From assembly GCA_020438595.1 (NCBI GenBank), contig JAGQUI010000003.1, forward strand, positions 1 to 31,060: a stretch of 31,060 bases of DNA, written 5' to 3'. The position numbers and the translations under genes were made by a program. Positions 7,536 to 28,121 of this stretch are shown piece after piece. The notes beneath the pieces are model-generated. The model did not search any database and was not told the DNA's origin. It saw nothing but the letters and a program-made list of their open reading frames with translations. The stretch comes from Propionibacteriaceae bacterium (GTDB lineage Bacteria; Actinomycetota; Actinomycetes; Propionibacteriales; Propionibacteriaceae). The first letter of the stretch is position 1, and every line of letters begins with the position of its first letter.

Positions 7536-7556
7536 AGTCCGATTCCAGGAAGCAGC

Positions 7557-10053: not shown

Positions 10054-10095
10054 CGTGCACCGTTCTTGACCGTGTTCGGTCAAGAACGGTGCACG
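10054..10095. terminator. 18-bp perfect hairpin between the isomerase and acpS genes
   Basis: Arms of 18 bases (10054-10071 and 10078-10095) are perfectly complementary around a 6-base loop. This is the strongest simple dyad in the window. It lies 58 bp past the isomerase stop and 50 bp before the acpS start, both on the minus strand, so it probably ends the transporter/isomerase transcript. No U-tract follows on either strand. A large operator is the alternative. Confidence 0.6.
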
Positions 10096-10153
10096 GTGAC
10101 CGCAGAGCAATCAGTCAAGCCAGGCCTTGTTGCCGAGGCCGCAAAGCCACAGC

Positions 10154-11801: not shown

Positions 11802-11804
11802 GGC

Positions 11805-12488: not shown

Positions 12489-12554
12489 TGTCAACGCTCT
12501 CTGAAAACTGACCCCTTGCGGCGATAAGGGGTCAAAGTTGGAGCGGCGTTGACA
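12489..12554. mobile_element. 66-bp IS21-like miniature or internally deleted IS
   Basis: Two 29-base ends face each other around 8 bases. Both ends read TGTCAACGC, 11 bases, TGACCCCTT when taken inward, so the spacing is identical. TGT tips and subterminal repeats of this kind resemble IS21-family ends in actinobacteria, from memory of the family. The flanks carry AAGCC at 12483-12487 and 12555-12559, a possible target duplication one base off the left tip. It separates the metabolic part from the conjugative part and truncates a gene on each side. Confidence 0.65.
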
Positions 12555-14050: not shown

Positions 14051-14055
14051 GGGGT

Positions 14056-14973
14056 CTACCTGGCCAGGCTCGGCCCGCTCCGTCCGCGGGATCGGGCTGG
14101 GGAGGCCATGACCTCTCCGCGGGGTCGTCCGGCGGCGGTCACGGTCTCCCAGACCCCGGGTGCCGGACTGACCATGGGCGTGATAGTCGCGCTGGTCGGC
14201 ACGTCGTCGATCGGCTGACCGGCGGGCTGGGTGTGGGTGAGGATGCGGTGGGCGGCGGCGATGACGCGCTCGCCGGTGGTTCGAATAGTCTCGTCGAGGC
14301 TGTGGAGATCGTGGTCGCGTCCTGCGGCTTCGACGGCCCAGCCGGCGACGTAGTTGAAGGTGTACTGGCCCGCGTCCAGTCCGTGGGCCTGGGTGATGAG
14401 GTAGGCGGTGGACTCAGCGATCACCTCGAGGACGCCGCGGCACTGCCGGGCACCGTAGGTGGCGATGTCGGCCGGGTCCATGGTGAACACGTGCGCGGCC
14501 TCATGACTGAGCGTGCGGACGGCTTGGGCGTCGTCCACGTCGGCCCGCACGCGTACCTGTCGGGCGGCGAAGTCGGTGTAGCCGTTCGCGCCCTGGCAGT
14601 CGCCGCGGGTCACGGTGAAGCCCTCGCCGGTCACTAGCTGGGCCAGCGAGTCCCACAGGCCGGGAGGTGCCTGGCCGACCAGCAGGGTGGGTCGGGGCCG
14701 TTCGATCTGGGGTGGCGGCTCAACCTGGCTGGCGTCGAAGACGTGCGCCACCCGTACTCCGACCATCTGGCGGCGAGTGGCAGGCCGGCCGGAAGGATCG
14801 AGGACGGGGCGGCCGTTGGCGTCCTCAATCGGCACGGTGCGCGTAACGGGTGCGAGGATCGGGATCGCCTTCTCGCCCCGGCGGACCTGGTGGCCTTTGG
14901 CCTGCCAGGCCCGGTAGCCGGCGACCAGGGTGGCGTCGGGTTTGGCCAGGTAGATCAGGCAGGTGTTCGAGAA
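14056..14973 (-). pseudogene. ArdC-like antirestriction gene, 3' part (interrupted)
   Basis: This segment encodes the last 305 residues of an ArdC-like protein: from 'FSNTCLIYLAKPDATLVAGYRAWQ' (end of the ssDNA-binding ArdC N-domain), through 'RRGEKAIPILAPV', to a metallopeptidase-like domain with 'LSHEAAHVF', an HExxH motif. ArdC-like proteins protect incoming single-stranded plasmid DNA from restriction. The first 57 residues are encoded at 18091-18261; joining the two parts restores 362 codons and the expected Y-S-F-S-N stretch. The 3,117-bp insert is a multiple of three and open on this strand, giving a spurious 1,401-codon frame. Confidence 0.85.
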
Positions 14974-15119
14974 GAAACCCGGCGAATTGCATCCGATGAT
15001 GTATTCAGGCGGTTGGCTGTATGCCTGCGAGCGTCGGACGGAGTCCATCGGACGCGGCCGGCCGCCCTCTCGGTGCCCAGTGTATCGCCTAGTGAAGGTT
15101 GGTTCGCCGGTGTGCGGAT

Positions 15120-15132
15120 TGCATCGGATGCA
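15120..15132. promoter_or_regulatory. Palindrome upstream of the E1 recombinase
   Basis: TGCAT and ATGCA flank CGG, just 12 bp before the recombinase start. A near copy of the left half (ATTGCATCCGATG) occurs at the left end of the element (14986-14998), so this may be a recombinase or HTH-protein binding site. E2 has a different, longer palindrome at the matching place. Confidence 0.4.
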
Positions 15133-15144
15133 TGATACGTTCAT

Positions 15145-16284
15145 GTGCTTGTGAGGGGTGTCGAGGGTGATGCGGCGGCGCGGTTGGCGCCTGCTGCGGT
15201 GGGTGTTCCGGGGTCGGCCGAGGTGCTGCTCGCGGGCGGGTTGTCGCTGCTGGCGCCGGAGGAGACTGTCTTCGAGGCGATGCTGGACGGTTGGGCTGTG
15301 CAGCAGCGGTCCCGGCTGCTGGTCGACACCACGATCAAGCAGCGGATCTTCGCGGTCCGCCGGTTCCACCGATTCGCCGGGGAGTATCCGTGGCGATGGA
15401 CGCCGGCCGACGTCGAGGAGTGGACCTCGGAGCTGGTCGGCGGCGGTGTCGCGCACTCCTCGGTCCGCTACTACCAGATGGCCGTGTCCCTGTTCTGTGG
15501 GTATGTCACCGACCCGCGCTACCGCTGGGCCGAGGTGTGCGAGCTGCACTTCGGGTCGCACCCGGTGCAGGTCTTCCACGAGTGGAACACCGTCGTCCAC
15601 CGTGCCGAGTACGAGGGGCGGCCCGGGAACCGGCCGTTCACCCGCGACGAGCTGCAGGTGTTCTTCGACTACTGCGACCAGCGGGTCGCCCAGGTCGCCG
15701 ACCGCGGCCGGAAGGGATGGCTGGCGGCCTACCGGGACGCCACCTTGTTCAAGGCGATCTACGCGTGGGGGCTGCGCCGCAGGGAAGCCGCGATGCTCGA
15801 GACCGTCGACTGGTCGGCCAACCCTGCCGCACCACAGTTCGGCCGCTACGGCGCGCTGAGCGTGCGCTACGGCAAAGCCGTCAAGGGTTCCCCGCCGCGG
15901 CGCCGGACCGTGCTCACCACGATGGGCTGGGCGGCGGAGGCGGTCGCCGAATGGGTCGAGGAGATCCGGCCGCTGTACGCCCCGGCCGGGGTCGCGCTGT
16001 GGCCCACCGAGCGGCGCGCCAAGATCTCCACCGACGCCCTGACCGTGCGCTTCCAGGCCTACCGCGAGGCGGCCGGGCTGGACCCGATCCTGTCCACACA
16101 CTGCCTGCGACACTCCTACGCCAGCCACCTCCTCGAGGACGGCTACGACCACCTGTTCGTCCAGCAGCAACTCGGCCACGCCTGGGGCGCCACCACCGCC
16201 ATCTACACAAGCGTCGGCGCCGACTACAAGAACCAGGCGCTGCGCCGGGCCCTGTCCCGAGCCCTCGACCAACCAACCAGCTAG
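15145..16284 (+). CDS. Tyrosine recombinase of element E1
   Basis: A 379-residue phage-integrase-family recombinase. The N-terminal SAM-like DNA-binding domain covers about residues 40-125. The catalytic domain shows Arg in 'YAWGLRRREAAML' (about 211), a Lys hairpin 'YGKAVKGSPPRRR', His319 and Arg322 in 'HCLRHSYASHL', His345 in 'LGHAWG' and the nucleophile Tyr354 in 'AIYTSV'. The full R-K-HxxR-H-Y set suggests an active enzyme that cuts and joins the element ends. The start may be GTG 15145 or GTG 15151. It is clearly homologous to the E2 recombinase but diverged. Confidence 0.92.
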   Translation: MLVRGVEGDAAARLAPAAVGVPGSAEVLLAGGLSLLAPEETVFEAMLDGWAVQQRSRLLVDTTIKQRIFAVRRFHRFAGEYPWRWTPADVEEWTSELVGGGVAHSSVRYYQMAVSLFCGYVTDPRYRWAEVCELHFGSHPVQVFHEWNTVVHRAEYEGRPGNRPFTRDELQVFFDYCDQRVAQVADRGRKGWLAAYRDATLFKAIYAWGLRRREAAMLETVDWSANPAAPQFGRYGALSVRYGKAVKGSPPRRRTVLTTMGWAAEAVAEWVEEIRPLYAPAGVALWPTERRAKISTDALTVRFQAYREAAGLDPILSTHCLRHSYASHLLEDGYDHLFVQQQLGHAWGATTAIYTSVGADYKNQALRRALSRALDQPTS

Positions 16285-16294
16285 GAGAAGCCCG

Positions 16295-16645
16295 ATGCCC
16301 CGCACCCGAAAGCCCGCCCTCGGATACCGCTGGCACCTGCGCCGGCTCATGGCCGAGCACGACATGTACGCCACCACCGACCTGACGCCCCTGCTCGCCG
16401 AACGCGGCGTCGCGCTGTCACCGGCCCAGGTGTACCGACTCGTCACCGGCACCCCCGAAAGGCTCAGCCTGCGCACCCTCGTCGCCTTATGCGACATCCT
16501 CGACTGCACCCCCAACGAGCTCATCGAGCCCGTCGTCGAAACCAAGCCCGTCAGGGCCACCGGCACCACCGGTCCCGCACCGGCGACCATCACCGCCGCG
16601 AAACAACGCACCCCCCGGCGGGCCGACATCACCAGCGTCGAGTGA
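16295..16645 (+). CDS. Small XRE-type HTH protein of element E1
   Basis: A 116-residue protein with a Cro/C1-type helix-turn-helix (HTH_26 style) at about residues 8-75: 'YRWHLRRLMAEHDMYATTDL', then 'RGVALSPAQVYRLVTG', and 'LVALCDILDCTPNELI'. The tail is Pro/Thr-rich and basic. AGGAGAAG overlaps the recombinase stop, 10 bp before the ATG. Its stop overlaps the next gene's GTG by 4 bp. It may regulate the trio or act as a recombination accessory factor; its constant place between the two recombinase genes in both elements favours a part in the reaction. Confidence 0.85.
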   Translation: MPRTRKPALGYRWHLRRLMAEHDMYATTDLTPLLAERGVALSPAQVYRLVTGTPERLSLRTLVALCDILDCTPNELIEPVVETKPVRATGTTGPAPATITAAKQRTPRRADITSVE

Positions 16646-18048
16646 GCTCGGGACCGTGCCCGATCTGCGGGCGGGAGATGGGCAAGTCCAGCAAGGAGTT
16701 CTGCGGCCGCTGCACCCAGGGCACCGACCGTGTCCGTGGCGCTTGCTCGGCCTGCGGCAAGCCCGACCGGGTCCTCGACCACCACCAGGTCTGCAAATGG
16801 TGCCGCAGGTACAGCCGGCGCCAATGCGTCGACTGCGGACGCACGCCCGACCAGGCACGCACCATCGGGCCCACCCAGCTGTGCGACCACTGCACCCTTC
16901 GCCGCGCGCTCGACCACATCATCCCCGCCCAGCCCGCCGGCCTCCTCGCACCGCTGCGACCGGTCATCCTCGCCGCCGAGCCCCTCACCACCCGCCGGTG
17001 GCTGGCCCGCCACGCCGACCTGCTCACCGCCCTCGACCAAGGCCGGTCCAGCCTCGATCACGCCACCCTCGACACCCTCCCCCACCCCAAGGCGGTCGGG
17101 CATCTGCGCGCCCTCCTGATCAGCGCCGAGATCCTGACCCCCGACCCCACCGGGCCCATCCGCCGGCTCGAGAACAGCCTCGATCAGCTGCTGGCCGAAC
17201 TCGACCAGCCGCACCGCCGCATCATCGCCGGCTGGATCCGCTGGCAAGTGCTGCCGCCCCTGCGGCAACGCGCGGCCGATGGCCTCGAGCTGACCAACTC
17301 CGTCGCCAACGCCCGCAACCGGATCGAACGCACCATCGCCTTCCTGACCACCCTGCAAGCCCGCGGTCGGACCCTGAGCAGCATCACCCAGCACGACATC
17401 GACGACTGGTTCGCCGGCCCCGGCGCCGCCCGCTGGAACACCCGCCCCTTCCTCGCCTGGGCACACAAACGCAAACACCTGCCCCAGCGAGTCCAGCTGC
17501 CCCCCGCCTCCTACATCGGGACCCGAACCGCGCCCGCCGACCCCGAGGAACGCTGGACCACCGCCACCAGGCTCCTCACCGACGACACCCTCGACCCCGC
17601 CGATCGCGTCGCCGGCCTGCTCATCGTCCTCTACGCCCAAACCCTCAGCCGCATCACCACCCTGACCCGCAGCGACATCACCAGCGACGGCGACGGCGTC
17701 CAACTTCGGCTCGGAGCAGACCCCATCGACCTGCCCGAACCCCTCGCGAGCCTGATCCAAACCCTGCCCATCAAACGACGCGAGGGCACCGCCGAGAACC
17801 TGCCCAACCCATGGCTGTTCCCCGGCCAATGGGCCGGCACCCACATCCACGCAGTCAACCTCAGCGACCGCCTCCGCCGCATAGGCATCGAACCCCGCCG
17901 CATGCGCCTCGCCGCCGCCGAGCAACTCAGCCGCGAGATCCCACCCGCCATGCTCTCCGGCGTCCTCGGCCTGCGCACCGCAACCATCGCCAAACACAGC
18001 ACCCAATCCGGCGGGAACTGGGCCAAATACGCCGGCGCCCGTGGCTGA
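16642..18048 (+). CDS. Zinc-ribbon protein with degenerate tyrosine-recombinase domain (E1)
   Basis: A 468-residue protein from a GTG that overlaps the HTH gene stop (GTGA). The first 90 residues hold six CxxC-type pairs (for example CPIC, CGRC, CSAC, CKWC, CVDC, CDHC), enough for about three zinc ribbons. Residues 130-300 look like a SAM-like DNA-binding domain. The C-terminal part aligns by eye with the tyrosine-recombinase core: Arg I in 'LYAQTLSRITTLTRSDI' is kept, but HxxR reads RxxR, the GH motif reads GL and the usual Tyr position is His. A later 'NWAKY' Tyr is conserved in the E2 copy. Probably a DNA-binding partner of the active recombinase. Confidence 0.8.
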   Translation: MSSGPCPICGREMGKSSKEFCGRCTQGTDRVRGACSACGKPDRVLDHHQVCKWCRRYSRRQCVDCGRTPDQARTIGPTQLCDHCTLRRALDHIIPAQPAGLLAPLRPVILAAEPLTTRRWLARHADLLTALDQGRSSLDHATLDTLPHPKAVGHLRALLISAEILTPDPTGPIRRLENSLDQLLAELDQPHRRIIAGWIRWQVLPPLRQRAADGLELTNSVANARNRIERTIAFLTTLQARGRTLSSITQHDIDDWFAGPGAARWNTRPFLAWAHKRKHLPQRVQLPPASYIGTRTAPADPEERWTTATRLLTDDTLDPADRVAGLLIVLYAQTLSRITTLTRSDITSDGDGVQLRLGADPIDLPEPLASLIQTLPIKRREGTAENLPNPWLFPGQWAGTHIHAVNLSDRLRRIGIEPRRMRLAAAEQLSREIPPAMLSGVLGLRTATIAKHSTQSGGNWAKYAGARG

Positions 18049-18055
18049 ACCCAGG

Positions 18056-18090
18056 TATTCACGGACTTCGAATATCTCTCTCCTGCCAGT
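18056..18090 (+). repeat. Right end of E1
   Basis: TATTC (18056-18060), 9 bases, GAATA (18070-18074), 11 bases, CCAGT (18086-18090). ArdC-like coding sequence resumes at the next base with CGAG. The inverted TATTC/GAATA pair is the shape of a tyrosine-recombinase core or arm site. The same pattern and spacing recur at 26782 and 27983. Confidence 0.75.
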
Positions 18091-18261
18091 CGAGTACTGG
18101 TGGAAGCCGGCGGCGAACCGGAGCCAGCGCTGCCAGGCTTCGCGGTCGTCGAAGGTGGCCAACTTGGCGGCGAGATCCTGGTGCATCTGCTCGAGCACTT
18201 CCCGGCGCGCGGCCTCGGCTGCCTCTCGGTGCAGCTGCTCGTCGTGGTGTGGTCTGGGCAT
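18091..18261 (-). pseudogene. ArdC-like antirestriction gene, 5' part (57 codons)
   Basis: Encodes the first 57 residues, MPRPHHDEQLHREAAE to 'RFAAGFHQYS', the helical start of the ArdC-like ssDNA-binding domain. A GGGGGA ribosome binding site lies 5 bases before the ATG at 18261. E1 interrupts it after the TCG codon; the remainder is at 14056-14973. An IS110-family element at 18295 also separates this start from its conserved upstream motif, so the gene is doubly disabled. Confidence 0.85.
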
Positions 18262-18296
18262 CGCTGTCCCCCGGGTTGATCGGCTGCTGACCCACT

Positions 18297-18589
18297 GATA
18301 TGGGGGGTTGGTTCGTCAAGAGGGCGTGGGGAGGCGCCGCCGGGGCTGGGTGCTTCGGCGGCGCCTCTTCTTGTCTTGGCTGCCGTGCCTGGGGCTGGTG
18401 GGCGGGTCGTGGTCGACGCGGTGTCAGTCTGATATGCGCGGGTTGGGTACCGCATTACGGTGTTCCGGCTGGAGCGTTCTGCGCTGTCTAAGCTCGAGCG
18501 TGGCCCAGGTGAGGGGTTGCTCATAGTGGGTTCGCGGGTCCGCTCCGGTGCCGCTGACACCAGCTGGTTGTGGCTGCCAAGGGCAGGCT
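18297..18589 (-). ncRNA. Candidate bridge-RNA region of the IS110-family element
   Basis: The 293-bp noncoding stretch downstream of the transposase contains short segments that match the junctions: CTGATATG at 18429-18436 equals the element's own end at 18295-18302; CTAAGC at 18488-18493 equals the right target side; AGTGGGT at 18525-18531 is the complement of the left target side (ACCCACT). Two guides that pair with opposite target strands are what the bridge-RNA model demands. A long noncoding flank on the 3' side fits the IS1111-like branch. Strand, ends and fold are not established; several matches are only 6-8 bases. Confidence 0.5.
18331..18367. terminator. GC-rich hairpin with trailing T-rich stretch
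   Basis: Eleven-bp perfect arms (18331-18341 and 18357-18367) with a 15-base loop; the plus strand continues TTCTTGTCTT. It lies within the noncoding flank of the IS110 element. It could stop plus-strand transcription leaving E1, or be a stem of the candidate bridge RNA. Confidence 0.5.
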
Positions 18590-19690
18590 TCAGGGTTGGT
18601 CGATGGTGGCTACTGACCAGCACCATCCGGCGAGTTCGCGGGCGATCGCGACGGTCGCGACGTGGTGGAGCTTCTTGCGGGCTTGGAATCCGACCCAGCG
18701 GGCGTGCAGGCGCCGGTTCCCGGCGTCGGCGCGGGCTCGTGCGGCGGGGGGTGCCAGATCCCACCTGGCCCGTAACGCCTTGCCTTTGCGGTAGGGCTGC
18801 ATGTGGTGCAGCGCGGCCTCGATCAACAGCCGGCGGACGTGTCCGTTCCCGGTGCGGGTGATCTTGCCGCGTACCTTGCTGGCCCCTGAGGAGTGTTCGG
18901 AGGGGATCAGGCCCAGGTAGGCGCCGATGCTGTTGCCGTCGAACCGGGTCCAGTCGCCGATCTCGACCGCGAGCGCGAACCCGGTCAGAGTGCTGATCCC
19001 GCGCAGGCAGCCGAGTTTGTGCACCATCGGGGTCCACGCCGAGTCGGCGGCCAGCTGCTCGATCCGGGCATCCAGCCGGTCCCGACGCGCGGTCGTGGCC
19101 AGGACCTGGTCCAGGTACTCCTCGAGGGTGCACTGCAAGTTGGGATCGTCGAACCGTTGCCGGGCCAGCCACGCCAGGTGTTTCCCGGTCCAGGCGGTCC
19201 CGTCGCAGTACACGACCTGATGCCGCAGCAGCAGCTTCGAGAGCCGGTGCCTCGACCGCATCAGATCGGTGCGGCAGTCCTCCCGGCACCGCACGAGGTC
19301 CCGGGCCGACTCGGCCGCGGCGTCCGGAACCGTCACCGGTGTGAACTCGCTCAACCGGAGCAGCCGACACAGCAGTTCGGCGTCCCGGGCGTCGGTCTTG
19401 ACCCGGTCCCCGGCCGGGCGCTGCAGCTTCGAGGGTGCTGCGACTTCGCACCGGATACCGGCAGCGCGCAGCTCGCGGGCCAGGCCGAACCCGGTCGGCC
19501 CGGCCTCGTACAACACCGCCACCGGCCCTGGCAGTCTGCTGATCCACTCCCACACCTCCATGCCGGGCGAGAGCCGGCCGACCAGCACCTCGCCAGTGAC
19601 TTCGTCGATCGCGTGCGCGCTCACCGATCGGGCGTGCACGTCCAGCCCGACACTCGTACGCTCTGTGAACACCGGGGCCTCCCCACACAT
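18590..19690 (-). CDS. IS110-family transposase (DEDD/Ser recombinase)
   Basis: A 366-residue IS110-type transposase. The RuvC-like domain has Asp in 'SVGLDVHARSV', Glu in 'AVLYEAGPTGFGLA' and the Asp pair in 'VKTDARDAELL'. The C-terminal Transposase_20 domain contains 'LGCLRGISTLTGFALAVEIGDWTRF' and 'YLGLIPSEHSSGASKVRGKITRTGN', where the Ser nucleophile lies. All key residues are present, so it may be active. The ATG at 19690 is preferred; the open frame extends to 19786 over a GGGCAGG/CCTGCCC hairpin (19703-19721) that could hide the start in read-through mRNA. Confidence 0.93.
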   Translation of the reverse strand: MCGEAPVFTERTSVGLDVHARSVSAHAIDEVTGEVLVGRLSPGMEVWEWISRLPGPVAVLYEAGPTGFGLARELRAAGIRCEVAAPSKLQRPAGDRVKTDARDAELLCRLLRLSEFTPVTVPDAAAESARDLVRCREDCRTDLMRSRHRLSKLLLRHQVVYCDGTAWTGKHLAWLARQRFDDPNLQCTLEEYLDQVLATTARRDRLDARIEQLAADSAWTPMVHKLGCLRGISTLTGFALAVEIGDWTRFDGNSIGAYLGLIPSEHSSGASKVRGKITRTGNGHVRRLLIEAALHHMQPYRKGKALRARWDLAPPAARARADAGNRRLHARWVGFQARKKLHHVATVAIARELAGWCWSVATIDQP

Positions 19691-19791
19691 GTCGGATAGG
19701 CCGGGCAGGTAGCCCCTGCCCAGCAACCCACGAAGGGTGTGCCGGTGAGGCCCCGGCCCGCAATCCCCACCAAAGGGACCTCCCATAGCGT

Positions 19792-19822
19792 CTAAGCCGA
19801 AAACGGGGGTGCGATCCGGACA
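19792..19822 (-). promoter_or_regulatory. Bipartite motif, copy B (IS110-interrupted, for the ArdC-like operon)
   Basis: On the minus strand: TGTCCGGATCG, 12 bases, CGGCTTAG. The IS110-family element begins at the AG (CT on the plus strand). The native downstream sequence, beginning TGGGTCAGC, reappears beyond the IS at 18294. Reconstructed, it ends 33 bp before the ArdC-like ATG. Confidence 0.75.
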
Positions 19823-19906
19823 GCCGGGAGCACATCTGCCGGCGAGCCGGTCGCAGGGCCCGGGTGGTGGTGACCCGGTCGGTGTCCTGGGGTGTGGAAG
19901 GCGGGC

Positions 19907-20548
19907 TCAGTCTGGAGGCGGGGTGGACGGGTCGCGGCGGAGCTCGTAGATGCGTCGGGCGATGAAGTCGCGGCGGGTGTCGTCGACCAGTTTCAGGCCG
20001 GGCATGTCGTTCAGGTAGAGCTGGCAGAGTTTGGCCACGCGGGTGCTGGTGACGATGACGACCTGCAGCCGATCGGCTTCGCCGGCCAGGTGCTGAAACA
20101 CACGCTGGCGGAACGGCGTGGCGAGGCCGTGGCCGCGCTTGGCGGCGACGTGGTCTGACAGCATCCAGGCACCGTCGCGGGTCGGATGGACGAGCATGGT
20201 GGCGCTGTCATCGAAGTAGCCGACCACCCAGCCTTGCCGGCGCCATCGTCGAAGGCTCCACCGAATGCCGTACGGCAGCAGGCCGAGAGACACCAGGAAC
20301 ACAACAACAGTGGCGATCGCCCCTTCGACAGGCTGGAGCGGTAGCCCGTAGGGCAGACCTCCGACGAGCCAGCATCCACCGACCAGCAGTGACACGGCGA
20401 CGACGTAGACCAGGAGACCGGGATCAAGCTGCCGCAGGGAGAGGCGTCCGAGAAGGCGCATGGTCTGGAGTGTGAGCGGTTCGGTTCCGGACAGCGGCGA
20501 TGGCTGCGGAGGCGGGGGCGATGCCGGGTGGCGGGGTGGTGTCGCCAT
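19907..20548 (-). CDS. Two-span membrane protein of the conjugative element
   Basis: A 213-residue protein. A Pro-rich N-terminus (residues 1-25) is followed by two hydrophobic spans at about 45-65 and 75-97 separated by a short Gly/Pro loop, then a basic stretch and a soluble C-terminal domain of about 110 residues ('GYFDDSATMLVHPTRDGAWML', 'ADRLQVVIVTSTRVAKLCQLYL'). I do not recognise the family. Last gene of a four-gene minus-strand operon, 17 bp after its neighbour. A GNAT-like C-terminal half is conceivable from the strand pattern but unproven. Confidence 0.75.
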   Translation of the reverse strand: MATPPRHPASPPPPQPSPLSGTEPLTLQTMRLLGRLSLRQLDPGLLVYVVAVSLLVGGCWLVGGLPYGLPLQPVEGAIATVVVFLVSLGLLPYGIRWSLRRWRRQGWVVGYFDDSATMLVHPTRDGAWMLSDHVAAKRGHGLATPFRQRVFQHLAGEADRLQVVIVTSTRVAKLCQLYLNDMPGLKLVDDTRRDFIARRIYELRRDPSTPPPD

Positions 20549-20565
20549 GGAACGACTGTGCCCGC

Positions 20566-21036
20566 CTATCCCGGTTCAGGCCATGGGTAAAGGCTGCCGA
20601 GCCTGCTGATGCCCATCCGGTTTCCGTCGGCGGCCCGGTAGCGGCCTTGCGGGTCCGGGACCAGTTGGCCGCTGTGTTCGTGGCTGCCGCTGGCGTGCGC
20701 GATCGCGGCCAACACCAGCTGGACATGGTCGTGGTCCAGCCCGGGAATGTCCTGGCACAGGCTGACGGGTCTCCCGCCGAGCAGGGCTCCAGCGATGCGC
20801 AGGATTCGGATCTCGCCGCCGGACAAGGCGGCGAGGTTGTCCTCGCTGAGCTGGTCGACATCGACCCACCACCATCCCGGATCCTCACCGGCCTGGATCC
20901 AGGGCATTGCGCTGCTGGCGAAGCGTCCACTGCAAGCGCGGATGAGCAGCTCGACGCCCGCCTCGAGCGGGTAGATCCCTTTGGCCCAGGCCAGCAGGCC
21001 GGCGGCCGTGTGCTGCACTGTGATGGTCATTGGCAT
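20566..21036 (-). CDS. Unrecognised protein of the conjugative element
   Basis: A 156-residue soluble protein. It has a Trp-rich turn ('DPGWWWVDV', residues 52-60), followed by a helical 'LSEDNLAALSGGEIRILRIAGALLGG' and a 'LDHDHVQLVLAAIAHASGSHEHSG' His-containing stretch. The ATG at 21036 overlaps the upstream gene by 10 bp; MTITVQHT at 21030 is an alternative. The longer frame to 21420 is a shadow of the upstream gene. Tight coupling says it works with the membrane pseudo-protease; its function is unknown. Confidence 0.75.
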   Translation of the reverse strand: MPMTITVQHTAAGLLAWAKGIYPLEAGVELLIRACSGRFASSAMPWIQAGEDPGWWWVDVDQLSEDNLAALSGGEIRILRIAGALLGGRPVSLCQDIPGLDHDHVQLVLAAIAHASGSHEHSGQLVPDPQGRYRAADGNRMGISRLGSLYPWPEPG

Positions 21037-21884
21037 GCCCGTCTCTTGGCGACTGGATCGGGATCGGTGGCGGCGGTGTGCGGCAGCGTGTCGAGTTTGT
21101 TGGCGCGCTCGAGGGCGCGAACAGGAGGCTTGGATGCGCGGATCATCGACGCCAAGGCCGGACCGAGTCCCTCGGCGATCACCTGCCGGTCGCCGAGAGT
21201 CCGCAGCGTGTCGTGCCAGCGGCGTCGGAACACCGGCGTGGTGCCGCTGAGCACGGCCACGATCACGACAACGACCAGTGCGCCCCAGCGGGCGGCGTGG
21301 GCGTTGTCGATGATCGCGACGCCGAACACGATCCAGCGGATCTTCCAGGACGCCGACATCAGCCCGGAGCGGCCGACGCTCGCGGTGAACACCGCCGTCA
21401 TGACCTCGACCAGCCTCCACGGCAAGCAGTAGGCATCCACGACGGCGACCAGCCTGGATCCCGATACCGGCTGCTGACCGAGCGCATGACTGACCAGGGC
21501 GGAGGCACTCTCGTCACTCAGCTCGCCCGTGACGATCCGTCGAAACAGGGACGGGCTGACCACCAGATCGGTGCAGGTGGGGACGACGGCCTCGCCGGGG
21601 CCGGTCCGGCTGCCGATCCAGATCCGCGGCTGGTGCCGGCCGCGCAGCGAGGCGACCGGCACGATCGCCGCCTGGACCCGGTCCCGCTCGAACGAGCTCG
21701 CCGGGCGGGCACCGAAGCGCCACCACAGGCCAGCTCGAATATCGCGAACCAGCAGCCCCAGGATGCCGACCCCCAACACGGTCACCGCGACCGTCAGGGA
21801 GAGCCCGGCAACAACGATCCAGACCATCGTGCTGAAGATCACCCCGGTGATCTGTGCCCGCGCCCACGCGCCAGGCCAGGACAT
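21027..21884 (-). CDS. Membrane protein resembling M48 peptidases but lacking the HExxH zinc site
   Basis: A 285-residue membrane protein with two N-terminal spans (about residues 12-48), one hydrophobic pair at about 185-215, and a cytoplasmic tail. Between them lies a region with the M48/HtpX layout: 'CTDLVVSPSLFRRIVTGELSDESASALVSHALGQQ'. The family's HExxH appears as HALGQ, so the catalytic Glu and second His are missing and zinc hydrolysis is unlikely. It would then be a structural or binding relative. Second gene of the operon, 3 bp after the 100-residue gene. Confidence 0.7.
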   Translation of the reverse strand: MSWPGAWARAQITGVIFSTMVWIVVAGLSLTVAVTVLGVGILGLLVRDIRAGLWWRFGARPASSFERDRVQAAIVPVASLRGRHQPRIWIGSRTGPGEAVVPTCTDLVVSPSLFRRIVTGELSDESASALVSHALGQQPVSGSRLVAVVDAYCLPWRLVEVMTAVFTASVGRSGLMSASWKIRWIVFGVAIIDNAHAARWGALVVVVIVAVLSGTTPVFRRRWHDTLRTLGDRQVIAEGLGPALASMIRASKPPVRALERANKLDTLPHTAATDPDPVAKRRACQ

Positions 21885-21887
21885 CGC

Positions 21888-22190
21888 TCACTCCCCAGCC
21901 GGGACGAGCTTGGCCAGCCGGCTGATCTCCCTGACCTCGAGTGTCCCGCCGCACAGCTCGACGATCTCGGCCGCTGACGCACCCTCGGCCAGGATCGCGC
22001 GGATTGCGGCGGACGCGGCCTGCTCGGCCTGGGCCACGGCCGCGTCCCGGCCCGCGACCACGGTCAGCAGCGTGACCGCCTGGTCGCGGATCCGCTTCTC
22101 CCGGGCCTCCCGCTCGCGCTGCCTGACCAGCAACGCCTCGTTGACCCGCCGCCTGGCCTCCTGGCGAAGGTTCTGCTGAGTGCCGCCCAC
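21888..22190 (-). CDS. Small coiled-coil protein of the conjugative element
   Basis: A 100-residue protein, strongly charged and helical (about residues 5-75, rich in Arg, Glu and Ala), probably a coiled coil. It ends in 'GASAAEIVELCGGTLEVREISRLAKLV', which looks like a small HTH-like or partner-binding region. It is the first gene after bipartite motif copy A. GTG at 22190 with AGGAGG about 9 bases upstream. A regulator or a partner of the membrane proteins encoded downstream is possible; nothing more can be said. Confidence 0.7.
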   Translation of the reverse strand: MGGTQQNLRQEARRRVNEALLVRQREREAREKRIRDQAVTLLTVVAGRDAAVAQAEQAASAAIRAILAEGASAAEIVELCGGTLEVREISRLAKLVPAGE

Positions 22191-22225
22191 GATCTCGGCC
22201 TCCTCTCGATCGGTTCCTCACCCCA

Positions 22226-22256
22226 CTAAGCCGAAAACCGACCCCCGATCCGGACA
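22226..22256 (-). promoter_or_regulatory. Bipartite motif, copy A (four-gene operon)
   Basis: Minus strand TGTCCGGATCG, 12 bases, CGGCTTAG, then TGGGG. It ends 35 bp before the GTG at 22190. Matching blocks continue after the motif (CCGATC about 12 bases on) in this copy and in the reconstructed ArdC-like promoter, so the likeness covers a whole promoter region. Confidence 0.75.
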
Positions 22257-22379
22257 ACATCCACCGACGACTTCCCAGCAGTCCTCAGCGACACCGTGGC
22301 CACACCGACCCACCCGACGATGTCCCCCCCACCCGAAACAGCCGATCCCATGTGCGACACACCTCTTGCACGAACAGCC

Positions 22380-22410
22380 AGACCATTGCGAATCCCGTCT
22401 GATGGGATCT
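22380..22410 (+). repeat. Probable left end of E2
   Basis: ACC, then GCGAAT (22388-22393), 7 bases, GATG (22401-22404), matching E1 at 14982-14998 in order and spacing. ATCCC and GGGAT arms at 22392-22408 add local symmetry. Only about a dozen bases agree, so the exact left tip is a guess. Confidence 0.45.
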
Positions 22411-22559
22411 CACAAACGTTGTTGATCGGCTGCGAGTTCGTGGCGTCTGCGCTGGTCAGGGACGGGATGGTTGCGTGCTGTCGCTGGTGGCCGCACGACG
22501 CAACGCGACGAGGGCTGTCCACGAACCAGCGGTTGGCTACGCGCTCAGCTGCGCGATCC

Positions 22560-22588
22560 CGTTAAACGGGATATTGTCCCGTTTAACG
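22560..22588. promoter_or_regulatory. 12-bp perfect inverted repeat before the E2 recombinase
   Basis: CGTTAAACGGGA and TCCCGTTTAACG flank 5 bases, ending 21 bp before the recombinase GTG. Lower GC than its surroundings. It is most likely an operator for the trio operon, with the encoded HTH protein as candidate ligand, or a recombinase accessory site. Confidence 0.6.
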
Positions 22589-22609
22589 CGATGCTGATGG
22601 GGTGGGGTT

Positions 22610-23743
22610 GTGGCGCGAAGGGCGGGGTCGCCGGTGGGCTCGATGCAGCTGGTGCTGCCTGCTGGCGTGCCGTTGCTGCACCCGGAGACGCAGGTGTTCG
22701 AGGGGATGATCCAGGGCTGGCGAAACCAGATGCTCGCCAGGAACTTGGCCGAGTCGACGATCGTTGCGGCGGTCCGGGTGGTGCGGGCGTTCAAGGCTCA
22801 TCACGACGTGTGGCCGTGGTTGTGGACGCCCGCGATGTCGGATGAGTGGTTCGCTGACCTGCGTTCGGTGCACCACATCGCGACCAGCACAGTGCGTTCC
22901 TACCAGGTCGCGCTGCGCGGCTTCTGCCGGTACGTCACCGACCCGGCCTACGGGTGGGCCGAGGACTGCGAGCGTCGGTTCGGCACTCACCCGATCCAGC
23001 TGATCAACGAGGTCAACGCGGCCGCTCATGTGGCCGATGTGGAGTCCGAGCCTCGGAAGCGGGCGTTCACCCGGCCCGAGTTGCAGGCGCTGTTCGACTG
23101 GGCCGACGACCAGGTTGAGCAGCGACGCATGGCCGGCCGCAAGGGCTGGCTGCCGGCGTTCCGAGACGCGACCATGTTGAAGACCGCGTACGCGTTCGGG
23201 CTACGACGGACCGAGACCAGGATGCTGGACGTCGTCGACTTCGGGCCGAACCCTGCGGCGTCGGAGTTCGGGAACTACGGGGCGCTGTACGTGCGCTACG
23301 GCAAGGCTCAGCGCGGCTCGCCACCCAAGCGTCGCAGCGTGCTCACGGTGTGGCCATGGGTGGTGCCGGTGCTGGAGCAGTGGTTCGGCGAGGTCCGGCC
23401 CCTTCTGGCCGGTGACGGCCCGGCCGCGTGGCCGTCGGAGCGTGCGGTCAGGATCACTTCGCCGTCGGTGGACGCGCTGCTTCGCCAGGCACGGACCGCG
23501 ATCAGTCTGGACCCGGTGCTGGACTTCCACTCGCTGCGCCGCTCCTACGTCACCCACCTGATCGAGGACGGCTGGGACGCCCGGTTCGTGCAGGAACAGG
23601 TCGGTCACGAACACGCCTCGACCACGGCCCTGTACACCTGTGTTTCGTCCGACTACCGGACCCGGACACTGCGCCGGGCCCTCGACGCCCTGGTCGGCGA
23701 GGTCCTCGATGACTCGCCCACAACCGCACGGAAAGGACCGTGA
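22610..23743 (+). CDS. Tyrosine recombinase of element E2
   Basis: A 377-residue phage-integrase-family recombinase homologous to that of E1 along its length (shared 'YVTDP', 'GRKGWL', 'RYGKA-GSPP', 'ARFVQEQVGH'). Catalytic set: Arg in 'YAFGLRRTETRML', Lys in the hairpin 'YGKAQRGSPPKRR', His307 and Arg310 in 'HSLRRSYVTHL', His333 in 'VGHEHAS' and Tyr342 in 'ALYTCV'. It should be active. GTG at 22610; the stop overlaps the following ATG (TGATG). Much of the divergence from E1 lies in the N-terminal DNA-binding part, which fits different binding sites. Confidence 0.92.
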   Translation: MARRAGSPVGSMQLVLPAGVPLLHPETQVFEGMIQGWRNQMLARNLAESTIVAAVRVVRAFKAHHDVWPWLWTPAMSDEWFADLRSVHHIATSTVRSYQVALRGFCRYVTDPAYGWAEDCERRFGTHPIQLINEVNAAAHVADVESEPRKRAFTRPELQALFDWADDQVEQRRMAGRKGWLPAFRDATMLKTAYAFGLRRTETRMLDVVDFGPNPAASEFGNYGALYVRYGKAQRGSPPKRRSVLTVWPWVVPVLEQWFGEVRPLLAGDGPAAWPSERAVRITSPSVDALLRQARTAISLDPVLDFHSLRRSYVTHLIEDGWDARFVQEQVGHEHASTTALYTCVSSDYRTRTLRRALDALVGEVLDDSPTTARKGP

Positions 23744-24087
23744 TGACCCGTCAACGACGCATCGTGTCTTACACCTGGCGGCTCCGGCAGGTGATGGCCC
23801 AAGCCGGGATGTTCGCCACCACCGACCTGGTCGAACCCCTCGCCGAACGGGGTGTGCAGCTGTCCACCTCCCAGGTGCACCGGCTGGTCACCACCCCTCC
23901 GGAACGGCTGAATCTGACCGTTCTGGCCGCCTTGTGCGACATCCTCGCCACCACCCCGGACGAGTTGATCCTGGTCGAGTCCGCGAACGTGCCCTCACGC
24001 AAGGTGGTCAACGATGCGCCCACCCCGCGCGGGGACCGTGTCCGGCCCATCCGTGCCGAGGTCGTGCCCGACACCGACCAGCAGTGA
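23743..24087 (+). CDS. Small XRE-type HTH protein of element E2
   Basis: A 114-residue protein with an HTH_26-like domain at about residues 8-72 ('YTWRLRQVMAQAGMFATTDL', 'RGVQLSTSQVHRLVTTPPERL', 'LAALCDILATTPDELI') and a charged tail. It matches the E1 protein closely, including the 'MFATTDL/MYATTDL' and 'PERL-L' elements. The ATG overlaps the recombinase stop by one base and the stop overlaps the next gene by four, so all three are translationally coupled. Confidence 0.85.
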   Translation: MTRQRRIVSYTWRLRQVMAQAGMFATTDLVEPLAERGVQLSTSQVHRLVTTPPERLNLTVLAALCDILATTPDELILVESANVPSRKVVNDAPTPRGDRVRPIRAEVVPDTDQQ

Positions 24088-25616
24088 GCCCGCGGCCACG
24101 GGTCATCGACCCCGGCAACCTGACGTGCGCCCGCTGCCACCGGCCCGCAAGACTCGCCACCCGAGAACCCTCTCCGGCCCGCGGAAAGATCATCACCCTG
24201 ATCCGCAACTGGCCCGACGGCAAGATCTGCTCGGGCTGCTACGCCAACGCCGCCGAAACCTTCGGAACCTGCCAACGCTGCGGCACCCACCGCCTCCTGC
24301 CCGGCCGCGGCCCCGACGGCGAACTGTGGTGCTCCGACTGCGCCGGCATCCCCAGCCAGGCCTGTGCCCGCTGCGGCCGGGAAGGCTGGCTGGAACACAA
24401 ACAGACGTGCGGCTGGTGCGTGCTCGGCGACAAGCTCACCACCGCGCTCGACGACGGCACCGGCCGGATCCGGCCCGAACTCCAACCCTTCTACGACCGG
24501 ATCGTCGCGATGCCCAGGCCCCGCACCGGAATCCTGTGGCTCAACAAACCGCACGTCCAGCCCCTGCTGCACAAGATCGCGACCGGACAGGTACCTCTCA
24601 CCCATGACGGCATCACCAGCCTCACCCCGGCCCGCTCCGCCTCATACGTCCGCCGGCTGCTCGTCGCTGCCGGCACCCTGCCCGACTACGACCACTACCT
24701 CGACCGGTTCGAACGCTGGCTCCCCGGCTGGCTCGACACCATCCCCGACCCCGACCACCGCCAAATCCTCACCCGCTACGCAAAATGGCACGTCCACCGC
24801 CACCTCCGCAACGCCGCCACCGACGACACCATCGGCCCCTACCGGGAACAGACCGCCCGACGCCAACTCCGGGTCGCCGCCGCCTTCCTGACCGACCTGC
24901 AAGCCGCCGGCCGACCCCTCGAACGCTGCACCCAAGCCCACCTCGACGCATGGCTGGCCACCGCCACCTGCGCCGACAAAACCACCGCGCGAGACTTCCT
25001 CAGCTGGACCATCCGGACCCGGATCGCACCCCGCCTACGACTCCCACCCGTCAAAGACAACCCCGCGACAGTGATCAGCCAGCAACACCGCCTCGAGATC
25101 CTCCGCCGGATACTCACCGACGCCGCGATCCCCACCGTCGACCGGGTCGTCGCCACCCTGATACTGCTGTACGCCCAACGCCTGCAACGCATCCTCGCGC
25201 TGCGCCTGGGCGACATCACCGACGGCGCCGAAGGTCTCACCATCAACCTCACCGGCACCGCCGTGGACGTCCCCGCGCCCTTCGACGAACTCATCCGAGC
25301 CCACCTCGTCGAACGCACCACCACCATCGCACCCGCCGCGAACACCGGCAGCGACTGGCTGTTCCCCGGCAGGCTCGCCGGACACCCCATCCAGCCCACC
25401 GGCATCCGCGCCCACCTCCAACGCCTCGGAATCCCCAACGCCCCCGGACGATCCAGGGCGCTGCGCGAGCTCGTCCTCCAAGCCCCACCCGCTGTCATCG
25501 CACCCCTGCTCGGTTACAAGGCCGAACACGCCGAAAAGATCGCCGCCGAAGCCGGCAACACCTGGCAGCGATACGCCGCGGGCACCCACACCCCACTCAC
25601 CGGCACCCGGCCGTGA
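24084..25616 (+). CDS. Zinc-ribbon protein with degenerate tyrosine-recombinase domain (E2)
   Basis: A 510-residue homologue of the third E1 protein, starting at a GTG that overlaps the HTH stop. Six Cys pairs in the first 115 residues (CARC, CSGC, CQRC, CSDC, CARC, CGWC) should bind about three zincs. The C-terminal part keeps 'ILLYAQRLQRILALRLGDI' with the box-I Arg, 'WLFPGRLAG', and 'LRELVLQAPPAVIAPLLGY', but the GH motif is GY and the Tyr position is not aligned; 'NTWQRYA' near the end parallels 'GNWAKYA' in E1. Likely an obligate partner of the active recombinase. Confidence 0.82.
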   Translation: MSPRPRVIDPGNLTCARCHRPARLATREPSPARGKIITLIRNWPDGKICSGCYANAAETFGTCQRCGTHRLLPGRGPDGELWCSDCAGIPSQACARCGREGWLEHKQTCGWCVLGDKLTTALDDGTGRIRPELQPFYDRIVAMPRPRTGILWLNKPHVQPLLHKIATGQVPLTHDGITSLTPARSASYVRRLLVAAGTLPDYDHYLDRFERWLPGWLDTIPDPDHRQILTRYAKWHVHRHLRNAATDDTIGPYREQTARRQLRVAAAFLTDLQAAGRPLERCTQAHLDAWLATATCADKTTARDFLSWTIRTRIAPRLRLPPVKDNPATVISQQHRLEILRRILTDAAIPTVDRVVATLILLYAQRLQRILALRLGDITDGAEGLTINLTGTAVDVPAPFDELIRAHLVERTTTIAPAANTGSDWLFPGRLAGHPIQPTGIRAHLQRLGIPNAPGRSRALRELVLQAPPAVIAPLLGYKAEHAEKIAAEAGNTWQRYAAGTHTPLTGTRP

Positions 25617-25647
25617 GCCCCGGAACCGGCCCGGATAGGCTTCCAAG

Positions 25648-26685
25648 GTGAGGAACAAGGGAATCCAGGCCGGCCTAGCCTCCGCGCTGCTCTTCGGCGC
25701 CGGAACCCCCATCGCCAAACTCCTGCTCAACACCGCCAACCCCTGGCTCCTGGCCGGACTGCTCTACCTCGGCTCCGGGCTCGGCCTCACCATCTGGCAA
25801 CTCGCCCGACGCGCCCCCCGCCCCCGCCTCCAGCACGGCGAACGGCGCTACCTCGCCGGCGCGATCACCTTCGGCGGCGTCGCCGGCCCCGTCCTGCTCA
25901 TGATCGGGCTCACCAGCCTGCCCGCCTCCGGCGCATCCCTGCTCCTCAACGCCGAAGCCGTGCTCACCGCCGGTATCGCCTGGATCGTGTTCCGCGAACC
26001 CTTCGACCGACGCGTCGGGCTCGGCATGCTCGCCATCATCGCCGGCGCCGTCGTCCTCACCGTGCAAGGCGGGATCAGCTTCGGCAGCCCCTGGCCCTCC
26101 CTGGCCATCCTCGGCGCCTGCCTGTGCTGGGCCATCGACAACAACCTCACCCGCAAGGTCTCCCTCCACGACGCCACCTGGCTCGCCGCGATCAAAGGCG
26201 GCGTTGCCGGCCCGGTCAACCTCGCCCTCGCCCTCGCCCTCGGCGCCACCCTGCCAGCCTGGACGAACGTCGCCGCCGCCATGGCCGTCGGGCTGGTCGC
26301 CTACGGGGTCTCACTCGCGCTGTTCATCATCGCAATGCGCCACCTCGGCACCGCCCGAGCAGGCGCCTACTTCTCCGTCGCACCATTCTTCGGCGCCGCC
26401 CTCGCCGTCGCTATGGGTGAACCCATCACCGGGCCACTCCTGATCGCCGCCGCCCTCATGGCCGCAGGGGTCTGGCTACACGTCACCGAACGACACGAGC
26501 ACCAGCACACCCATCAGCCGACCGCTCACACCCACTGGCACACCCACGACGACGGCCACCACGACCACCAACACGACGACCCGATCCCGGCAGGCACCGG
26601 GCACAGCCACCCGCACACCCACCAGGCCCTAACCCACAGCCACGCCCACTACCCCGACGCCCACCACCGACACGACCACAACTGA
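25648..26685 (+). CDS. EamA/DMT-family transporter with a His-rich C-terminal tail
   Basis: A 345-residue membrane protein with two five-helix EamA repeats (about residues 5-135 and 150-280; ten spans). The last 60 residues are a soluble tail with more than 20 His plus Asp ('HTHWHTHDDGHHDHQHDD' and similar), which should bind divalent metal. Such tails occur on transporters and sensors for nickel, cobalt or zinc; the metal is not known here. It lies 31 bp after the zinc-ribbon gene and before E2's right end, so it is cargo of the element and probably read from the same transcript. Confidence 0.88.
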   Translation: MRNKGIQAGLASALLFGAGTPIAKLLLNTANPWLLAGLLYLGSGLGLTIWQLARRAPRPRLQHGERRYLAGAITFGGVAGPVLLMIGLTSLPASGASLLLNAEAVLTAGIAWIVFREPFDRRVGLGMLAIIAGAVVLTVQGGISFGSPWPSLAILGACLCWAIDNNLTRKVSLHDATWLAAIKGGVAGPVNLALALALGATLPAWTNVAAAMAVGLVAYGVSLALFIIAMRHLGTARAGAYFSVAPFFGAALAVAMGEPITGPLLIAAALMAAGVWLHVTERHEHQHTHQPTAHTHWHTHDDGHHDHQHDDPIPAGTGHSHPHTHQALTHSHAHYPDAHHRHDHN

Positions 26686-26781
26686 CCCCGCCGGCAGGAG
26701 CCGCGCCGTGCCGAACTCGTCGTCCGCGTCCCAACGTCCACAGCGGTGCACGAAGACGCCCCGGGACGGCACAACAGACGC

Positions 26782-26815
26782 TATTCACAACCCCTGAATA
26801 CGCGCTGGTACCAGT
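26782..26815 (+). repeat. Right end of E2
   Basis: TATTC (26782-26786), 9 bases, GAATA (26796-26800), 10 bases, CCAGT (26811-26815), followed by CGGGG. Same plan as the base-resolved right end of E1. Confidence 0.7.
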
Positions 26816-26916
26816 CGGGGTATGCCGAGTATTACCGCGGAGTTCTTCCTGGCCGCGCCAAGCGCTAACCGCGCGTGTCGTCGGGGTGCTCTAGCACGGC
26901 CATCGCCCGGGCACTG

Positions 26917-27864
26917 TCACTGTGTCCGTCCGATCTCGACGGCTCCAGACTCGAGCCGGGTCTGCCAGGTGTCGAGAACGAACTCCGCGATGGTGACCGT
27001 CGCGTTCAGCGCCAGACGGGCGTGACGCGCAAGCGCCCCACTGCGCCGGGATTGCCCATGCCCGATCCCCAGTTCGTTGCGCAGCTCAGAGAGCGAGTTC
27101 ACCGTCGTCACGAGCGTCCGCAGGATCTTCTGCGACGTCTGACTCGCTCGGGCGGACTCAGGCACCGCCTCGGCGTTCAGGGCGAGAAGGTCCGCCACCT
27201 TGCGGTAGAGGTCAGGGATGTCGTCGCTGCGGCTGTACGAGACCTCGCTGCGGTCGAGGATGATCTTGAACAGCGACTCGATGAGGTTCTTGCAGGACGA
27301 GATTGCCGCCGGTGGATCCGCGACCAGACCGGCGCGGATCCGGTTGAGGTGCTCCTGGAGAACATCCGGATCCGTGAGAGGTCGCTCGCTCAGCCGTAGC
27401 TCCGGCGTTGTGCCGTGAAACGCGCCCAGACGCCGCCAGCCGTAGATCGCATGACCGCTGATCCAGTCGGACGCGTGAAGCTCGTAGCCGTCGCGCGCGA
27501 GAGCCTCGTTGAACGCCTTCAGTAACAGCGCCGCCTCGGCCTCGTTAGTCCGCACGACCGGGTGCAGCATCTCGGCGAGGAACGACAGGACCACCTCGTC
27601 GTCCCCATGCATGAGCCCGAACCTGCTGTCGGTGAAGACCCAATCGTCTTCCCAGTCCTGCGGGTTGTTCACTCGGTGCTGCCAGATGTCTCCGGCCGCG
27701 TCTCGGTAGCGGGTATCCGTGCTCGGCAACTCGCTCAGATCGTAGATCCGGCCGAGAAAGTCCGGCTCCTCAAGACGTCCCGACCAGCTGAGCCCGGAGA
27801 GCGCGATGGAGTCGAAAAGCTTGCGACGGGTGACTGCGGTGATGCGACTCGAGCTACTCGGCAT
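26917..27864 (-). CDS. Abortive-infection (AbiJ-like) phage-defence protein
   Basis: A 315-residue protein of the AbiJ/Abi_C type. The N-terminal part (about residues 10-100: 'FDSIALSGLSWSGRLEEPDFLGRIYDL', 'DIWQHRVNNPQDWEDDWVF', 'LMHGDDEVVLSFL') matches the N-terminal domain found on AbiJ-like proteins. The C-terminal part (about 185-305) has the Abi_C/HEPN-like 'ISSCKNLIESLFKIIL' and 'LSELRNELGIGHG' with an R-N-x-x-G-x-x-H type signature. Such proteins are thought to cut RNA and stop growth on phage infection. It stands alone between two element ends. Confidence 0.8.
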   Translation of the reverse strand: MPSSSSRITAVTRRKLFDSIALSGLSWSGRLEEPDFLGRIYDLSELPSTDTRYRDAAGDIWQHRVNNPQDWEDDWVFTDSRFGLMHGDDEVVLSFLAEMLHPVVRTNEAEAALLLKAFNEALARDGYELHASDWISGHAIYGWRRLGAFHGTTPELRLSERPLTDPDVLQEHLNRIRAGLVADPPAAISSCKNLIESLFKIILDRSEVSYSRSDDIPDLYRKVADLLALNAEAVPESARASQTSQKILRTLVTTVNSLSELRNELGIGHGQSRRSGALARHARLALNATVTIAEFVLDTWQTRLESGAVEIGRTQ

Positions 27865-27982
27865 GATCTGATCGTATTCACCTGAACGACTTCCGCAGCC
27901 CTTCGCATTCGGGTGCCATCTCGTGATGTCTGAACGCCCGCCGCAATCGACGGTGGCAACAGCGCGGCTTCGGTCCCGGAGC

Positions 27983-28017
27983 TATTCGGTCCTCTTGAAT
28001 ATGCACCCTCCACCAGT
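27983..28017 (+). repeat. Third copy of the trio-element right end
   Basis: TATTC (27983-27987), 9 bases, GAATA (27997-28001), 11 bases, CCAGT (28013-28017), then CGAG. The spacing is identical to E1, and the CGAG that follows is the same. Confidence 0.7.
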
Positions 28018-28121
28018 CGAGCGAGCTTTCCGGCAACACTGACGCGGTGTCTGCTGGTCAGCGCGAATACCTTCTGGAAGCGGCAGTTCCGGTCGCATCC
28101 TTGTCGAGGCAGGATGGGGCG

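Follow-up and report, generated by a model that had tools for sequence, protein, structure and literature searches.

A candidate family of small three-gene tyrosine-recombinase transposons in Actinobacteria, with two members on one contig of a Propionibacteriaceae bacterium

Introduction

Gamma-Mobile-Trio (GMT) elements are a described case of a mobile gene trio with tyrosine recombinases and a defence cargo. In this work we analyse a window of 31,060 nucleotides from a Propionibacteriaceae bacterium (GenBank assembly GCA_020438595.1, contig JAGQUI010000003.1, positions 1 to 31,060 of the forward strand) that holds two units, each built on a trio of genes for a tyrosine recombinase (YR), a small helix-turn-helix (HTH) protein and a zinc-ribbon protein (ZR). 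We propose, with a probability of about 0.85, that these units belong to a widespread and apparently undescribed actinobacterial family of small tyrosine-recombinase transposons with three mobility genes. The family is set apart by gene content, gene order and profile matches, while the likeness of ZR to the proteins GinC and Tfp is judged from the descriptions of those proteins.

Two described systems have a similar layout. GInts carry an operon at the 5′ end, followed by cargo and a short AT-rich 3′ end, according to the sections of PMC5385486 on which we draw throughout, and the trio elements have the same tripartite arrangement. GInts also combine GinC, a recombinase-like protein with an incomplete motif, with a small protein; they form circles and use 6-nt staggered cuts (PMC5385486). 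However, they have four genes, ginABCD, three of them integrase-like and two (ginA and ginB) with a full motif, against three genes here; the pseudomonad set occupies a single site within an ABC transporter gene, and zinc ribbons, which are present in ZR, go unmentioned for GInts in these sections (PMC5385486). Strand-biased circularizing elements (SEs) have a left-end operon, cargo and a recombinase-fold protein without the motif, Tfp, in the sections of PMC10214605 used here. Their operon, intA-tfp-intB-srap, encodes two active recombinases, against one and two other genes here, and their attR takes a 6-bp spacer from the left flank of the donor, whereas in three pairs of trio elements the right-end hexamer stays with the element.

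Tn554 and the actinobacterial Tn554-like elements are likewise tyrosine transposons of several genes, with a long second protein and with copies on both plasmids and chromosomes. They have two recombinases, of which the long one carries the catalytic motif, and most have TnpC (PMC3414803, in the sections consulted). In contrast, the trio elements show no equivalent of the catalytic pair TnpA and TnpB, as only YR keeps the catalytic residues, and no TnpC partner, the small protein of both window trios being HTH_26 by Pfam. RIT elements, as described by way of PMC3414803 and PMC10214605, also have three overlapping genes, but all three encode recombinases with catalytic motifs, against one here. 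The GMT models of NCBIfam gave weak matches at most: YR1 to GmtY at E=0.0084 and 15.4 bits (cut-off 340), YR2 to GmtZ at E=0.026 and 12.5 bits (cut-off 600), and none for ZR. In the literature searched, mostly without subscription papers, we came across no account of the trio, nor of elements that insert at the active-site codons of recombinases.

Results

Two related elements in the window

Element 1 lies on the forward strand at 14975..18091 (3117 bp, with ends uncertain by 1-3 nt) and interrupts an ardC-like gene. All of its features read forward: a left end at 14975..14998 with a CATCCGATG dyad, YR1 at 15145..16284 (379 amino acids; PF00589, E=2.7e-16), an HTH_26 protein at 16295..16645 (116 amino acids; PF13443, E=1.3e-17), ZR1 at 16642..18048 (468 amino acids, a homolog of ZR2) and a right end at 18056..18091 (TATTC-N9-GAATA-N11-CCAGTC). 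The two ends, AA-N7-GAATTGCATC on the left and CCAGTC on the right, match relatives for which an empty site exists. The split gene lies on the reverse strand, its 3′ part at 14056..14974 and its 5′ part at 18092..18261, and the flanks rejoin into one frame. The halves join at FHQYS-FSNTCLI, and the joined product has 39% identity to the intact ArdC of a related locus, L105 (loci in our collection carry the prefix L), with an ungapped junction.

Element 2 is also on the forward strand, at 22381..26816 (4436 bp), and has one cargo gene. Its left end (22381..22404, GACCATTGC-GAATCCCGTCTGATG) is common to the contig L007, whose own end is GTGCCAGTC. There follow, all forward, YR2 at 22610..23743 (377 amino acids; PF00589, E=1.9e-16), an HTH_26 protein at 23740..24087 (115 amino acids; PF13443, E=6.5e-13), ZR2 at 24084..25616, in which residues from about 221 to 510 correspond to a tyrosine recombinase fold, an EamA-type transporter at 25648..26685 (PF00892, E=2.1e-27) and the right end at 26782..26816. 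The transporter has a very His-rich C-terminal tail, which suggests a metal-related role.

The genes are closely packed, with a 4-bp HTH/ZR overlap (GTGA) in both trios, a 4-bp overlap of YR2 with its HTH gene and a 10-bp gap at the same place in trio 1. The first-pass annotation of this DNA had described two homologous but diverged trios in the order YR-HTH_26-ZR, each with a complete recombinase and a six-CxxC protein. This description is borne out by the coordinates and Pfam matches, by identities between the trios of 48% (YR), 52% (HTH) and 30% (ZR), by a count of six CxxC in each window ZR, and by an alignment in which the catalytic residues (R, K, H, R, H and Y) are all present in YR1 and YR2. 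Across 74 aligned YRs each of these residues is conserved in 71-73.

The same annotation had offered TATTC-N9-GAATA-N10/11-CCAGT as an end signature of the pair. It does stand at the right end of both elements, and its three occurrences in the window (forward strand; 18056, 26782 and 27983) compare with none in 100 shuffles. The third copy is preceded by neither a trio nor a left end, but by an AbiJ gene alone. The CGRG that was thought to belong to the shared end is mostly flank, the last base of the element being placed at the C of CCAGTC. The proposed left motif, GCGAAT-N7-GATG, occurs twice in the window where 0.09 occurrences are expected.

Element ends across the family

A relaxed form of the right-end signature is general in the family: there are 37 matches on the strand of the element, spread over 35 of 79 loci, against two on the opposite strand and 0.35 times per shuffle (20 shuffles). 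A typical element begins with AA-N7-GAAT(T/C) and a CATCNGATG-type dyad and finishes with ATTC-N9-NRATA-N(7-12)-CC(A/G)NNN. Between the ends come YR-HTH-ZR, 0-5 kb of cargo and the right end, for a total of 3.1-9.0 kb in the resolved examples. The distance from the left motif to YR is near-constant within each branch, and YR, HTH and ZR stand in this order at 45 of the 56 loci with room upstream.

When tested, the conserved region of related trios stopped at the left motif and the relaxed right-end signature, as the first-pass annotation had anticipated, and pairs from separate genomes lose identity at the same end positions. The Arthrobacter branch is an exception, as its conserved left end reaches ~38 bp further out. 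Several contigs are delimited in the same way. The contig L008 is the element itself, beginning AA-N7-GAAT and finishing CCAGTA, while L064 begins AACC and finishes one base beyond CCAGAG; both span an element from end to end within 1 nt. Others come close: L007 begins 6 nt outside the element and finishes CCAGTC, L067 begins ~6 nt inside and finishes CCAGAG, and L019 begins ~10 nt outside and finishes 4 nt beyond CCAGAC. A separate observation concerns two plasmids of Paenarthrobacter sp. YJN-D (L001 and L002, 6334-17389), which share 11 kb at 99.99% identity from the left end of the element on. Their left flanks differ, so that the element may have undergone one-ended transfer, or its left end may have been a point of recombination.

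Copies and empty sites

Near-identical copies of whole units of 4.0-6.3 kb, with their cargo, occur in different genes of one genome. The Rhodococcus WAY2 plasmid pRWAY02 carries two, one in an IS3 transposase and one in an integrase, that are 99.8-99.9% identical from end to end apart from a single 62-bp difference inside. The M. aubagnense loci L004 and L136 share ~6.3 kb, including MFS and MerR cargo, at 99.7% identity with 11 small gaps. Each sits at the Tyr codon of a different integrase gene and has a broken ZR frame. A third copy, L137, runs off the end of its record; its left flank is that of L136. The two copies of genome G286, in two integrases, agree at 4074 of 4075 bases. In Kutzneria sp. 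744 one array holds a 3238-bp unit twice in full and once 7 nt short, and a further copy lies elsewhere on the contig; the complete copies finish at CCAGTA. The array also contains a 458-bp right-end remnant (L026, 11464-11929). Lastly, L006 and L039 are both exactly 4048 bp long and 93% identical, with different targets. Identity between copies ceases at both predicted ends, and in three same-genome pairs the two copies have the same right-end hexamer although their left flanks differ (CCATTA, CCGTTA and CCATTT).

Natural empty sites, which had been named beforehand as a test of the proposal, were found for four insertions. The joined flanks match an equal-length stretch over 242 nt (99.6%), 318 of 320 nt (99.1%), 340 nt (98.8%) and 340 nt (95.0%), where the absence of gaps is judged by equal length; some records of 81-89% identity are 1-2 nt longer or shorter in places. 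These matches show that insertion neither removes nor duplicates bases of the target. In the branch to which element 1 belongs, the plasmid Miniimonas pS16-2 has backbone genes in common with a Paenarthrobacter plasmid and carries, intact, the ardC gene that forms the left flank in the latter, identical up to GTTGATG^CTGTAG.

With defined ends, several sites and empty sites, the trio units are, on this comparative evidence, transposable units, which move between sites as a whole and with their cargo. Pattern searches in two families gave hits in 3 of 401 genomes of one and in 10 of 300 of the other.

Insertion targets

We collected the loci with a branch-F left end and collapsed duplicates to 39 distinct left flanks, which were classed by target motif with a classifier that looked for recombinase and ISL3 motifs. 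Joined flanks were read in the frame of the target motif, as the longest open frame misleads in GC-rich DNA. Judged from these flanks, the branch with 16 CxxC inserts as TAYNNN^, for the most part where a tyrosine recombinase gene encodes its catalytic tyrosine, and a branch with 12 CxxC sits at the ISL3-transposase motif CRDRxGxYA^. The recombinase motif accounts for 27 of the 39 flanks, and 7 lie at or beside the ISL3 motif (L099 slightly off). The remaining five are L006, in an IS3 transposase (its empty site is so annotated), L069, in a DNA ligase domain, L079, in what we take to be a helicase-like motif, and two flanks assigned to no gene, L031 and L075. One flank is common to L056 and L102. 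Position -6 is T in 38 of the 39 flanks, -5 is A in 33 and -4 is C or T in 38, corresponding to 1.83, 1.16 and 1.06 bits.

Pfam was run on 38 peptides from 35 loci, picked by eye as likely coding from 69 candidate frames. It returned Phage_integrase for 21, DDE_Tnp_ISL3 for 5, Zn_ribbon_ISL3 for 3, DNA ligase for 1, and DUF3435, BRK and Phage_integr_3 once each; the flank peptides of L006, L033, L086 and L100 had no Pfam match. The target frame carries on in the right flanks. Four of the recombinase targets (L033, L036, L040 and L101) are themselves YR genes of trios, with the HTH gene, and partly ZR, beyond the right end; the extra HTH and ZR genes at L033 and L036 are due to nested insertion.

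In many insertions, e.g. L033, L039 and L048, the interrupted recombinase frame reads on beyond the catalytic Tyr into the left end, which supplies a short tail that is similar from case to case; a constraint on coding or one on a binding site could each produce this likeness. With this new tail the activity of the broken recombinase may be kept or changed.

The zinc-ribbon protein and a possible mechanism

From its fold and weak Pfam hits we infer that ZR is a recombinase-fold partner that lacks catalysis and carries an array of zinc ribbons. In an alignment of 35 ZR sequences no His is invariant or near-invariant past residue 330, and a ZR profile had no hit among PDB sequences up to E=0.1. 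The number of CxxC is 5-7 in the short-ZR branches. It is 12 in 4 of 4 ISL3-targeting elements with ZR seen (L043, L046, L063 and L140), a count that leaves out 3 of the 7 ISL3 cases, where ZR was not seen. It is 14-16 in 20 of 20 elements that target recombinases and whose ZR frame is usable, which leaves out 7 of the 27 recombinase cases (L004, L033, L040 and L136 with a broken or wrong frame; L090, L093 and L101 with ZR not seen). Four elements with other targets (L006, L031, L069 and L079) have 16.

In the mechanism that we propose, YR alone would perform strand exchange between a circular form and the target. The circle would have its right end joined to its left end through the 6-bp spacer of the element itself, with TAYNNN remaining at the target side. 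The HTH protein may bind dyads at the left end and at the promoter, and ZR may help to assemble the synapse and set the choice of target.

Cargo and trio-less units

Pfam searches on the open reading frames between ZR and the right end identify a varied cargo, with several frames lacking a match. L004 and L005 carry MFS and MerR genes, L017 GtrA, L028 Imm21, L036 GNAT, L040 AAA, L049 NUDIX (weak), L053 GrpB, L064 a pyridoxal-phosphate enzyme and GNAT, and L029 a 5-kb set that includes a serine resolvase.

Some units have no trio. Four loci with branch-F left ends (L139, L141, L142 and L143) have none within the following 5 kb, and in L141, L142 and L143 no right end was recognised. In L147, a 3006-bp unit (458-3464) with both ends and no trio lies inside the YR of another trio and encodes a DUF6082 protein. 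L139 has a right-end pattern ~0.8 kb past its left end (~374-1180); its right flank is ISL3-like by eye, and tblastn found no ISL3 there.

These units bear on a segment of the window, 26817..28018, that lies between element 2 and a DUF6933 gene and has no recognisable left end or trio. It encodes an AbiJ-type protein on the reverse strand at 26917..27864 (315 amino acids; AbiJ_NTD3, E=5.2e-54; Abi_C, E=9.6e-18; PADLOC AbiJ, E=4.8e-18) and carries the third right-end signature, complete and on the forward strand, at 27983..28018. Is this a second, trio-less element, or a gene cassette mobilised in trans? We regard this as possible and hold it tentatively: L147 and L139 offer precedents, but no left end is found at 26817, and a deletion remnant of a neighbouring element, comparable to the 458-bp Kutzneria piece, explains the segment equally.

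Discussion

Could these elements be diverged members of a described kind (Tn554-like, GInt, SE, RIT or GMT) instead of a family of their own? We consider this unlikely, though worth taking seriously. In the sections cited above, GInts and SEs likewise have a left-end operon, cargo, a short right end and a partner (GinC or Tfp) that has the recombinase fold but not the full motif, and actinobacterial Tn554-like pairs with a long recombinase have already been published (PMC3414803). Yet the trio has one active recombinase, not two or three, its small protein is HTH_26, its ZR bears zinc ribbons, and nothing exceeds the cut-off of a GMT model. Further, the long ZR finds nothing in four of the plasmids for which Tn554-like pairs were listed in 2012, where PF00589 does find recombinases, some in frames of 805-1037 amino acids. 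The first-pass annotation had set the trio apart from Tn554 and RIT elements by gene order, zinc ribbons and a single active enzyme, and had called it undescribed; the membership comparisons support the former, and no named system matched and no description of the trio turned up in the literature searched. Four points go beyond that annotation: how strictly the large branch chooses its target, the ardC target of element 1, the cargo before the right end and the nesting.

The target list raises a second question. A plausible reading, to which we give somewhat less than even odds, is that the family is hyperparasitic: ZR would read DNA that encodes the active-site motifs of recombinases and transposases of other elements, and the element would insert there, its own kin included. 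Insertion would then probably disarm or rewire rival mobile elements. If branches with different numbers of ribbons read different motifs, ZR would be a natural and separable target reader.

A simpler account is survivorship, in which near-random insertions at TAY sites are visible only in dispensable mobile genes. The shared DNA motif is indeed short, with its information at -6 to -4, but tolerated gene loss leaves the position unexplained, given 27 flanks at the catalytic motif and the ISL3 flanks at one motif. Insertions elsewhere in recombinase genes could hide only among the five other flanks (L006, L031, L069, L075 and L079), and the DNA ligase domain of L069 is not a mobile-element gene. 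We think survivorship quite improbable as the explanation. A reading of the trios as mere integration modules within larger integrative and conjugative elements or prophages is scarcely credible, for although many are on plasmids (32 of 240 typed as conjugative), copies of the 3-6 kb units cease to be identical at both predicted ends, and an IMG/VR search with the ZR alignment gave one relative (L110) among 32 pattern-matched stretches. A viral scan with YR2 gave no relative among 4 matched stretches.

A number of points weigh against the transposon family or the target choice that we propose for it. The evidence for mobility is comparative, and no excision circle or transposition was observed. 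The strict signature, put forward at first as the family border, recurs at just 1 of 85 other loci (L003). YR and/or HTH are missing at 11 of the 56 loci with upstream room, and five of the nine left-end loci fetched at full length hold no trio. No right end is recognisable in L001 and L002, nor in many clade-B loci. The hhalign comparison of ZR and YR profiles gives a probability of 0.8%, i.e. no relation at the sequence level. In a sub-branch (L054, L056, L059 and L060) the cut falls 7 nt past the Tyr codon, not 3, and survival bias may contribute to the target list. Finally, the link between CxxC number and target is confounded by ancestry, which can explain it, and both sets of cases left out of the tally count on the same side.

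If the transposon reading holds, the short list of known tyrosine-recombinase transposons gains a widespread actinobacterial family whose ends are exact enough for annotation. Its cargo includes transporters, regulators and small enzymes, and the segment next to element 2 in the window holds a gene for AbiJ defence. The choice of target is unusual: in one branch the majority of the insertions mapped hit rival recombinases at the catalytic codon, with the junction at a fixed base. Should ZR set the target, the site choice of a tyrosine recombinase could be studied via a separate subunit.

Other features of the window

The first 15 kb of the window (1-15000) had no megablast match among plasmids. 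Plasmids were also searched with AbiJ and DUF6933; the matches were of <=80% and <60% identity, respectively, and none of them showed an empty site for element 2. Directly before YR2, at 22556-22592, lies a GTTAAACGGGATATTGTCCCGTTTAAC palindrome that is a possible operator. Just right of element 1, at 18590-19786, there is an IS110-family transposase (PF02371 and PF01548).

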